Part shown: in pieces, positions 42,885-45,018 of the stretch
Layout: every line of letters starts with the position of its first letter
How positions within the stretch are numbered: position 1 is the first letter of the stretch
Assembly (NCBI GenBank): GCA_902630715.1
Contig: CACOVO010000009.1
Span: 1 to 51,046 of the forward strand
Source of the DNA: an uncultured SAR86 cluster bacterium
GTDB lineage: Bacteria; Pseudomonadota; Gammaproteobacteria; Magnimaribacterales; Magnimaribacteraceae
Reading direction: 5' to 3'
Length of the DNA: 51,046 nucleotides
Program-made: the position numbers and the translations under genes
Notes under the pieces: generated by a model
Databases searched by the model: none
Seen by the model: only the letters and a program-made list of their open reading frames with translations
What the model was told of the DNA's origin: nothing

Positions 42885-42958
42885 GGCTGAGTAGCAAAGT
42901 GGTTATGCAGCGGATTGCAAATCCGTCTACGCCGGTTCGATTCCGACCTCAGCCTCCA
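42885..42958 (+). tRNA. tRNA-Cys (GCA)
   Basis: The 74-base gene folds as a cloverleaf with acceptor arms GGCTGAG and CTCAGCC, discriminator T and an encoded CCA. The anticodon GCA is at 42917-42919, and the anticodon stem matches E. coli tRNA-Cys (GCGGATTGCAAATCCGT). The T-loop is TTCGATT. The T-stem GCCGG/CCGAC has one C-A mismatch at the second pair. Confidence 0.95.
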
Positions 42959-43006
42959 TATTTGTATCATTGATTTCAAAATAGAGTAGAATGCGGTTAA
43001 CTTTTA

Positions 43007-43093
43007 GCCCGGGTGGTGGAATTGGTAGACACAAGGGACTTAAAATCCCTCGAAGGAAACTTCGTGCCGGTTCGAGTCCGGCCCCGGGCACCA
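43007..43093 (+). tRNA. tRNA-Leu (UAA)
   Basis: The 87-base class II tRNA has acceptor arms GCCCGGG and CCCGGGC, an encoded CCA, the anticodon TAA at 43041-43043 in the loop CTTAAAA, and a long variable arm (CTCGAAGGAAACTTCGTG region). A -10-like TAGAAT lies at 42987-42992. It ends 17 bases before the RfaH-like gene and may be cotranscribed with it. Confidence 0.96.
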
Positions 43094-43110
43094 TCTTTAA
43101 GTTGGATTAT

Positions 43111-43656
43111 ATGAAAGCAAAAAAAGATAGAAGTAAATGCATTTGGGTCCTCGTTTATACCAAGGCCAAACAAGAAAAAAGAGCTAATGAAAACCTTAAA
43201 AAGCAAGGTTTCAAAACGTTTTTACCAATGGTATTGAAGTCTAAAAATGGACGTAAGATAAATAAACCGGTGCCAATCTTTCCGAGATACCTTTTTGTAG
43301 AAATAGACCTATCTTTAAATAATTGGAGTGTTGTGAATTCCAGTTATGGTGTAAGCAATATAGTAATGTTTTCAGAAGAATTTACACCGATATCTCCTAA
43401 AATAATCTTAGCTATGAGGAAAAAGCTTGATGCTCAGGATGTCTATAAAGAAGATGTTTCGATTATTGATTTTCAGAGAGGGGATTCAGTTTCAATAGAA
43501 AGAGGGCGTTTAGCAGGAATAGATGCAGTCTTTTTATCTAAAAAATCAAATGATCGCGTAACTCTTTTGCTTAAATTGCTCAATACGACAGTTACAACTG
43601 ACCTCCACAAATCCAACTTGGGCAATAAAGAAATTATAAAATCCATTAAATTCTAA
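43111..43656 (+). CDS. RfaH-like NusG paralog (transcription antiterminator)
   Basis: This 181-residue protein starts at ATG 43111, because a longer frame would run through tRNA-Leu. The NusG N-terminal domain is clear (WVLVYTKAKQEKRANENLKKQGFKTFLPM, then PIFPRYLFVEIDL and YGVSNIVMF). A KOW domain follows (QRGDSVSIERGRLAGIDAVF, then RVTLLLKLLN). This closely follows E. coli RfaH, which binds paused RNA polymerase at ops elements and reduces termination and aids translation of polysaccharide operons. The gene sits directly at the head of such a locus, and an ops-like element lies 113 bases after its stop. A housekeeping NusG is unlikely in this context. Confidence 0.85.
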   Translation: MKAKKDRSKCIWVLVYTKAKQEKRANENLKKQGFKTFLPMVLKSKNGRKINKPVPIFPRYLFVEIDLSLNNWSVVNSSYGVSNIVMFSEEFTPISPKIILAMRKKLDAQDVYKEDVSIIDFQRGDSVSIERGRLAGIDAVFLSKKSNDRVTLLLKLLNTTVTTDLHKSNLGNKEIIKSIKF

Positions 43657-43670
43657 ATTTATTCAAATTT

Positions 43671-43699
43671 GTTTGTTCAAATATTGAACATACTATAAT
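43671..43699 (+). promoter_or_regulatory. Promoter of the polysaccharide locus
   Basis: A perfect TATAAT lies at 43694-43699. The -35 region 17 bases upstream (GTTTGT, 43671-43676) is weak, which is common for regulated promoters, and overlaps the first inverted repeat. The predicted start is near 43706, at the left edge of the second repeat. Confidence 0.5.
43674..43690. promoter_or_regulatory. Operator-like palindrome 1 (TGTTCAA-N3-TTGAACA)
   Basis: Perfect 7-base inverted arms TGTTCAA and TTGAACA flank ATA. The site covers the -35 region of the locus promoter. A MarR-type regulator encoded by the first gene downstream is the natural candidate ligand. Confidence 0.6.
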
Positions 43700-43706
43700 A
43701 TGTGTA

Positions 43707-43723
43707 CGTTCATTTATTGAACA
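43707..43723. promoter_or_regulatory. Operator-like palindrome 2 (imperfect copy)
   Basis: CGTTCAT-TTA-TTGAACA repeats site 1 with two changed bases in the left arm and an identical right arm. Its centre is 33 bases from that of site 1, about three helical turns, and it covers the predicted transcript start. Confidence 0.55.
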
Positions 43724-43743: not shown

Positions 43744-43769
43744 CAATGGATTATCTTATTAATCCATTG
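43744..43769 (+). promoter_or_regulatory. Perfect 10-bp hairpin in the leader of the polysaccharide locus
   Basis: CAATGGATTA (43744-43753) and TAATCCATTG (43760-43769) pair without mismatch around a 6-base loop (TCTTAT). No T-tract follows, so it is not a simple terminator. Its last base is the first G of the ops-like element, an arrangement that would place an RNA hairpin just behind a paused polymerase. Confidence 0.7.
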
Positions 43770-43777
43770 CGGTAGCT
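43769..43777 (+). promoter_or_regulatory. ops-like element (GCGGTAGCT)
   Basis: GCGGTAGC matches the core of the E. coli ops pause element (GGCGGTAGC) except that the first G is T here. It lies in the leader of a polysaccharide operon directly downstream of an RfaH-like gene and touches the ATG at 43778. Core GC/GC arms could form the small non-template hairpin known from ops. Confidence 0.6.
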
Positions 43778-44095
43778 ATGAAAAAAAGTCATTCTGAAAC
43801 GGAATTAGAAATCTTACAGAAATTAGAAGAAAATCCCAATCTTACTCAACGCCAAATTGCGGAGCATATGGGCTTGAGCCTGGGTAAAATTAATTATCTA
43901 ATTAAAGCACTTTTGGGAAAGGGTTTGATAAAGGTCAATAATTTCAGGAAATCAGATAACAAGATTGGCTACCTGTACCTGTTAACTCCTGAGGGTTTGG
44001 ACGAAAAAAGAAAATTAACTTTATTATTTCTTCAGCGAAAATCTGATGAGTTTGATAAACTAAAAGCTGCAATTCAACGAATGGATAAGTCATGA
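43778..44095 (+). CDS. MarR-type EPS-associated transcriptional regulator
   Basis: This 105-residue protein has a winged helix-turn-helix at about 8-75 (ILQKLEENPNLTQRQIAEHMGLSLGKINYLIKALLGKGLI, then YLYLLTPEGLDEK) and a C-terminal coiled helix (KRKLTLLFLQRKSDEFDKLKAAI). Length, layout and position match the EPS-associated MarR family (TIGR04176 type) found at the head of exopolysaccharide loci. It may repress its own promoter through the two palindromes upstream. It overlaps the wzz-like gene by 4 bases (ATGA), so it is cotranslated with it. No Shine-Dalgarno is visible; the ops-like element abuts its start. Confidence 0.82.
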   Translation: MKKSHSETELEILQKLEENPNLTQRQIAEHMGLSLGKINYLIKALLGKGLIKVNNFRKSDNKIGYLYLLTPEGLDEKRKLTLLFLQRKSDEFDKLKAAIQRMDKS

Positions 44096-45018
44096 CTAGC
44101 TCTAATACAAACATAGACAATAACGTTTACGAAGATGAAATTGATCTAAAACAACTTTTCCAAGCAATATGGAAAGGGAAGATCATTATAATTTTAATAA
44201 CAACAGTCGTGGCTATAAGCTCAATATTTTATGCACTATCTCTCACAAATTATTTTACCTCTGAAGCTGTTCTTGTATCCAGAGATGCTCAAACCTCAAG
44301 CCCTATTTCTCAATTTTCTGATATAGCGTCTCTTGCTGGATTGGGAGCAATATCAGGACAAAGTAATTCAACGTATAAAATGATCGAAATTATTAAATCT
44401 CGAGATTTTGTTAAACATCTGATCAGTTTCGATGATGTTTTACCTTCTTTGCTTGCTTACGATCAATACGATTTTGGGGAAGGGAAGTTATATTTTAATG
44501 CAGAAGATTATGATTCGGAGGAAAAAAAATGGGTCAGACAATCTTCTGCTGGTAAATCAGCTATTCCGACTTACCTGGAGGCTCATCAGGCATACATTAA
44601 GATGCTTTCAATAGGCCAAGATAAGATTACAGGCTTTGTAAACATTAAGTTTGAGCATGTGTCTCCTGTTTTTGCTCAACAATTCCTCGAACTCATCATA
44701 AAAGAAGCAAACTCTTTGAATAGAAAAAAAGATATAGCTGATTCAAAGGCCGCTCTCGAATATTTAACTAGAGAGCTCTCCCAGACCTCTAAGGTAGATA
44801 TAAAAAATTCGATCAACCTTCTTATTGAAGGTCAGCTTGAAACTCAAATGATGGCGAGTATTCACGAAGAATATAGCCTCGTTGTTCTGGAACCTCCTTT
44901 TGTTCCAGAAAAAAGATCAAGACCTACACGATCACTGATAGTGATAATATCTACATTGCTAGGCGGCATATTTAGTGTGGTCTTGGTTCTTATTCGCTAC
45001 TTTTTTTCAAGTAAATGA
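44092..45018 (+). CDS. Wzz-family polysaccharide chain-length determinant
   Basis: This 308-residue inner-membrane protein has two flanking membrane helices, near 30-50 (IIIILITTVVAISSIFYALSL) and 280-305 (SLIVIISTLLGGIFSVVLVLI). A periplasmic domain with predicted helices lies between them, and a Pro-rich EPPFVPEKRSRPTR precedes the second helix. This is the Wzz/PCP-1 layout without the cytoplasmic kinase of Wzc. It would set chain length in Wzy-dependent polymer assembly. Wzx and Wzy are not seen in this window. Confidence 0.85.
   Translation: MTSSNTNIDNNVYEDEIDLKQLFQAIWKGKIIIILITTVVAISSIFYALSLTNYFTSEAVLVSRDAQTSSPISQFSDIASLAGLGAISGQSNSTYKMIEIIKSRDFVKHLISFDDVLPSLLAYDQYDFGEGKLYFNAEDYDSEEKKWVRQSSAGKSAIPTYLEAHQAYIKMLSIGQDKITGFVNIKFEHVSPVFAQQFLELIIKEANSLNRKKDIADSKAALEYLTRELSQTSKVDIKNSINLLIEGQLETQMMASIHEEYSLVVLEPPFVPEKRSRPTRSLIVIISTLLGGIFSVVLVLIRYFFSSK

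Follow-up and report, generated by a model that had tools for sequence, protein, structure and literature searches.

The region described here belongs to a 51,046-nt stretch of DNA from an uncultured SAR86 cluster bacterium, hereafter referred to as the window, and forms the 5' leader of a surface-polysaccharide operon (Table 1). A gene encoding an RfaH-like paralogue of NusG is followed by two copies of a palindrome, a hairpin and the motif GCGGTAGC, downstream of which lie the genes for a MarR_EPS regulator, a Wzz-like protein and a relative of UDP-glucose dehydrogenase.

Table 1. Genes and leader features around the ops-like element of the window
Feature	Position	Strand	Remarks
RfaH-like NusG paralogue gene, 181 aa	43111..43656	+	TIGR01955, PF02357 and PDB matches
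Palindrome GTTCAAATATTGAAC, likely MarR_EPS operator 1	43675..43689	.	GTTCA-N5-TGAAC pattern
Possible -10 box TATAAT	43694..43699	+	sequence reading; weak
Palindrome GTTCATTTATTGAAC, likely MarR_EPS operator 2	43708..43722	.	GTTCA-N5-TGAAC pattern
Leader hairpin	43744..43769	+	perfect 10-bp stem, 6-nt loop; kept as structure in close leaders
5' arm of the hairpin, CAATGGATTA	43744..43753		sequence reading
Loop of the hairpin, TCTTAT	43754..43759
3' arm of the hairpin, TAATCCATTG	43760..43769
12-nt ops frame, TGCGGTAGCTAT	43768..43779
ops core GCGGTAGC, ops positions 2-9	43769..43776	+	carried by 19 leaders of the order
MarR_EPS regulator gene, 105 aa	43778..44095	+	TIGR04176, 136.3 bits (curated cut-off 88)
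Wzz-like chain-length determinant	44092..45018	+	Pfam Wzz, PF02706

The first-pass annotation had described a flawless 10-bp stem and, one base downstream of the ops core, an ATG, and the coordinates read from the sequence agree with both, a single T (43777) separating the core from the start codon (43778-43780). It had also placed the end of the stem exactly where ops begins; the junction stands but its exactness does not, as the two elements share the G at 43769. This hairpin is the only perfect 10-bp stem with a loop of 3-8 nt in the 51-kb window, which is unsurprising because shuffling yields 0.4 such stems on average and up to 2 (10 shuffles, 1-kb blocks). There are two copies of GCGGTAGC in the window (0.16 expected) and 12 in the corresponding genome (1.26 Mb, 63.7% complete), the latter count being equally unsurprising since the reversed control pattern occurs 13 times. 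Eleven of these 12 sites fall within ORFs of at least 100 aa, the sole exception being the one at 43769, and further ops targets in this 63.7% complete genome were accordingly rejected. What lies above chance is the combination of the hairpin with GCGGTAGC and its conservation in relatives. The hairpin was also considered as an intrinsic terminator and rejected, as no terminator was detected between 42800 and 44200; a scan for two-hexamer promoters retrieved none on the plus strand around the possible -10 box.

RfaH is the best family for the protein encoded upstream, although its score against TIGR01955 (133.3 bits) stays below the curated cut-off of 144.5, a value that is not exceeded in any of the 203 genomes of the order. 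Its NusG N-terminal domain (PF02357) scores 69.8 bits for a cut-off of 22.2, and its best PDB matches are RfaH chains (1.2e-15), which we take to be the E. coli protein. Matches to the RfaH model of at least 66 bits are found in 18 genomes of the order, each with a copy of ops downstream. This line between RfaH-like proteins and NusG was set after seeing the scores, and probable NusG matches reach 65.6 bits, so that the weakest of the 18 calls (66.4 bits) leans on its genomic place. A divergent paralogue located 139 nt before ops in L026 was found by reading, and again has RfaH as its best family (56.5 bits vs 22 for NusG). All 19 ops leaders of the order thus have an RfaH-like gene upstream (18 by HMM, plus L026), the distance from its stop codon to ops being 73-150 nt in 18 leaders and 1211 nt in G161; the protein of L297 is 63% identical to that of the window. 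The window protein resembles RfaH and the cis-encoded NusG paralogues in its NusG N-terminal domain, its best HMM and its location beside a polysaccharide operon, but differs from RfaH in its sub-cut-off score and in the residues expected to contact ops. Four side chains of E. coli RfaH touch ops, K10, H20, R23 and R73 (PMC5995543). As a set they are not kept in the 18 aligned RfaH-like proteins: K10 alone is present throughout (18/18), the H20 position is occupied by Asn in all 18, the R23 position by N (13 proteins) or K (5 proteins), and an R corresponds to R73 in 5 of the 18, with a Y in the window protein. At window residues 28 and 32, the counterparts of E. coli H20 and Q24, all 18 proteins have Asn and Gln, respectively, which possibly represents another way to read the same ops core.

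Leaders were collected from the 203 genomes by searching for the MarR_EPS protein, not for ops. MarR_EPS exceeds its cut-off in 21 genomes, 20 of them with a readable leader, a set that excludes L029 (where the match covers profile positions 27-94 and the leader is not identifiable) and all sub-cut-off matches. GCGGTAGC is present upstream in 18 of these 20 leaders, so the motif is conserved among relatives, and the hairpin at its edge is kept as well. The ops-like element proposed in the first-pass annotation is thereby borne out, by its conservation, its position, the RfaH-like gene directly upstream and the polysaccharide genes downstream. A 19th copy was found behind Wzz in G161, with hairpin and operator palindrome, in the order RfaH-like gene, Wzz, operator palindrome, hairpin and GCGGTAGC. 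In G200, whose MarR_EPS leader lacks GCGGTAGC, the MarR_EPS gene comes after a tRNA-like stretch and the best match to the RfaH model (57.7 bits) is at NusG level; that this genome has no RfaH-like protein is a weak statement, since L026 shows that divergent RfaH-like proteins score below 66 bits. Among the GCGGTAGCYAT sites of the 203 genomes, the first 93 distinct ones were classed, giving 19 noncoding sites of which 17 belong to the ops leaders above, and the remaining 20 sites all lie within ORFs. The other noncoding sites of the order with this pattern (L091 and L160) show no edge hairpin, and no downstream gene was found for them. The filters used to class these sites, the GCGGTAGC sites and the 13-mer sites described below are mechanical, counting as coding any ORF longer than 90 or 100 aa irrespective of strand. 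As the other sites are mostly in ORFs, the RfaH-like protein appears to have a single ops target of the GCGGTAGCYAT form, the adjacent one.

The window element shares with E. coli ops an identical core (positions 2-9), a location in the leader of a polysaccharide operon on the same strand as the genes, i.e., in the sense of transcription, and a genome that encodes an RfaH-like protein. Bases 3-8 (C3 G4 G5 T6 A7 G8) are identical in the window and the 19 leaders of the order, and are those required for RfaH recruitment according to PMC5995543. Yet the consensus of the order's leaders, TGCGGTAGCTAT, departs from E. coli ops, GGCGGTAGCGTG, on either side of this core: the G at position 1 is a T in 19 of 19 leaders, and GTG at positions 10-12 is replaced mostly by TAT (16/19; CAT, TGT and CTG once each). 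The dinucleotide T11-G12, which was tied to pausing at E. coli ops in a 2018 eLife study (PMC5995543), is absent from 18 of the 19, TG being found only in L247, and the window has A11 T12. Two more differences from E. coli are that the RfaH-like gene adjoins the only target found and that the start codon touches ops in one clade. With its core kept and its pause letters gone, the SAR86 ops amounts to a natural experiment separating recognition from pausing.

We folded the 46 nt up to ops in 28 MarR_EPS leaders with ops (18 from the order and 10 from other orders, the latter among 42 loci of the class), and found a stem ending no more than 3 nt from ops in 26 of the minimum-energy structures. 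L017 and L018 have no such edge stem in the minimum-energy fold, and a wider fold prefers the operator hairpin; the G161 leader has a hairpin at the ops edge as well. Because the stems end at nearly the same ops base while their letters differ (26/28), a function of the hairpin is indicated. Within a lineage the two arms pair better with each other than with arms taken from the remaining lineages (mean 17.8 vs 10.0, Wilcoxon P 0.0004, for 17 lineages defined by hand; 13.6 vs 10.2 over all 29 leaders). The f3/f4 group, represented by L015, runs opposite and falls below the cross pairs (7 vs 10.9) because its long inner loop is disallowed in this test, and L024, L025, L027 and L028, with a loop beyond the limit used, score 0. 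Both-sided changes are observed at three stem pairs among the five closest leaders, and two of them are safe, since the third comes from L010, whose stem uses another register. The outer ACGG/CCGT is invariant throughout the 12 f3/f4 leaders, the column alignment giving invariant pairs and no covariation, while the inner A-U stem is mostly just mildly better than shuffles, and in L017 not better.

The association also extends to the class, in which the canonical 13-mer has 80 matches; 75 distinct sites were tested for an edge stem, G459:C37, G459:C211, G459:C321, G211:C83 and G291:C11 being left out. Many of these sites may be due to chance, because the reversed control gives ∼52 matches (a ratio of ∼1.5, counted by eye). 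A strong edge stem is found at 12 of the 21 intergenic sites versus ∼2 of the 21 controls (mean of 0.10 and maximum of 0.29 with shuffles). The excess is weaker (0.39 vs 0.11; shuffles: mean 0.21, maximum 0.37) at the 54 of 75 sites that the mechanical filter called coding, some of which, e.g. L047 and L056, are MarR_EPS leaders.

The hairpin followed by ops is the known architecture of JUMPstart elements, among which a conserved stem-loop was reported in 2010 (PMC2864571). As in the JUMPstart family RF01707, the stem-loop of the window lies directly upstream of ops in a polysaccharide operon leader, but its stem has other letters and its loop lacks GGTAGC. The SAR86 form is thus a variant outside RF01707: searches with this model stayed below the gathering threshold, without a match in the window, in its genome (the E. 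coli positive control being found) and in 20 of the 28 ops-bearing loci. In E. coli K-12, the stem of the rfbB leader ends at G1 of ops, and that predicted for the wza leader is weak and ends 3 nt short of ops. The locus seems to be a marine version of a control element previously described in gut bacteria, and widens the range of the ops-RfaH system to uncultured bacteria of the ocean, whose RfaH-like gene neighbours the only target found. In a literature search conducted largely outside subscription journals, we found no report of a hairpin-ops element in SAR86, and no paper linking RfaH with SAR86 or the MarR EPS-associated exopolysaccharide regulator with RfaH.

The element is most likely an ops leader for the neighbouring RfaH-like protein, because of GCGGTAGC, the RfaH-like gene upstream and the conserved edge hairpin, and judging from these sequence features we are confident that it would be the loading site of this protein. 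We also favour, with less assurance, the reading of the whole as an exopolysaccharide operon leader from which the adjacent RfaH-like NusG paralogue is loaded onto RNA polymerase. That the hairpin itself would act as a pause or register element is a view that we come close to favouring. In the proposed sequence of events, transcription would start near 43706, under the MarR_EPS operator, and the polymerase, having transcribed the hairpin, would be held with GCGGTAGC exposed in the non-template strand of its bubble. With the RNA 3' end at ops positions 11-13, a stem that ends at ops position 1-2 would be located immediately upstream of the RNA:DNA hybrid. There it could fix the register, so that the pause is stabilised and backtracking prevented in a lineage without T11-G12. 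The RfaH-like protein would bind ops in the non-template strand, relieve the pause and ride the polymerase through the long operon.

In the his-type hairpin-stabilised pause, the hairpin is spaced ∼9-12 nt from the RNA 3' end. The stem base of the window hairpin would be located at a similar distance (∼9-12 nt) upstream of the position expected for the RNA 3' end, a likeness of geometry only. As this spacing fits and the pause dinucleotide is missing from 18 of 19 leaders, the hairpin may supply the pause instead. The E. coli ops pause is, by contrast, described as biochemically distinct from hairpin-stabilised pauses (PMC11001881). Suppression of hairpin-stabilised pausing has been reported for RfaH, but not for NusG (PMC6391919). 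The loss of T11-G12, the altered contact residues and this pause suppression together suggest that the hairpin might supply the pause and the RfaH-like protein release it. For E. coli, the ops-RfaH system has been worked out and ops alone is said to set the whole cycle, a 2024 cryo-EM study of ops on assembled scaffolds stating that the sequences of ops and RfaH solely determine the RfaH cycle (PMC11001881). We put forward only tentatively, as a rather unlikely extension, that the SAR86 ops has lost its pause dinucleotide and would rely on a hairpin pause relieved by the RfaH-like protein, making it a self-cancelling loading site; the edge hairpin would then be an overlooked second determinant of ops across Gammaproteobacteria, fused to the start codon in one clade.

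Another role for the hairpin, unlikely in our estimation though the likeliest of the alternatives, is that of an anti-backtracking or escape device instead of a stabiliser of the pause, which would pair ops position 1-2, compete with the 11th hybrid pair induced by RfaH and keep the polymerase from sliding back. An 11-bp hybrid including G1 is described for RfaH-bound ops of E. coli, from which escape needs anti-backtracking factors (PMC11001881). The stems do end at about position 1-2, that of E. coli rfbB likewise, and hairpins at ops sites that keep T11-G12 fit this role as well as they fit a pause or register element. The loss of T11-G12 in the SAR86 lineage is however left unexplained by it.

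A further reading of the start codon next to ops is a translation switch, in which ops and hairpin would cover the ribosome-binding region and the RfaH-like protein would bring the ribosome to a start lacking a Shine-Dalgarno sequence. In E. coli, RfaH interacts with S10 and brings ribosomes to mRNAs that lack binding sites (PMC13015549), and the start codon is found 1-2 nt past the ops core in four close leaders, ATG in the window and TTG in L012, L013 and L014. These are however just 4 of the 18 leaders, the distance in the other 14 being 23-58 nt (23 nt in L010, 35-58 nt in f3/f4 and 51 nt in L023); in E. coli, translation is described as beginning at least 50 nt downstream of ops (PMC11001881). 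Contact between start codon and ops is therefore a clade trait and was rejected as a conserved feature, and the coupling of elongation to translation through an adjacent start, as put forward in the first-pass annotation, loses its footing accordingly. Its companion argument, that RfaH would recruit ribosomes here for want of a Shine-Dalgarno sequence, fares no better, because such motifs are rare in the window anyway. We found them before the mechanical start of 9 of the 41 ORFs of at least 150 aa, and of 13 when later in-frame starts are allowed. The window's lineage seems to use few Shine-Dalgarno sequences, so that a missing one is ordinary and was rejected as a special feature. Given this scarcity and the 4 leaders out of 18, a translation switch appears improbable.

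Proteins of the MarR family recognise palindromes and frequently regulate the gene that encodes them. The inverted repeat at 43744-43769 has no mismatch and lies near the start codon, and might on these grounds be a DNA operator for the MarR_EPS protein encoded downstream, which we consider very improbable. A different 15-bp palindrome, GTTCA-N5-TGAAC, is present twice in the window leader and precedes MarR_EPS in 49 of 62 loci (17/20 in the order and 32/42 in the class; 0.01 expected from shuffles), the pattern having been picked after inspection of these leaders. It is very likely the MarR_EPS operator, and the hairpin was rejected for this role, which the other palindrome fills. Moreover, the letters of the hairpin vary between lineages while its pairing is kept, the reverse of what an operator would show. 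A chance juxtaposition of hairpin and ops has a practically negligible probability: shuffling does produce 0.4 perfect 10-bp stems per window on average, but ops is shared by 18 further leaders in the order and 10 in the class, nearly all with an edge hairpin.

Finally, the block formed by the RfaH-like gene, ops and MarR_EPS adjoins a tRNA gene in most loci (42885-43656 in the window; L010-L028), and its distribution in the order is patchy, MarR_EPS exceeding its cut-off in 21 of 203 genomes. It is as if a polysaccharide block had been exchanged at the tRNA.
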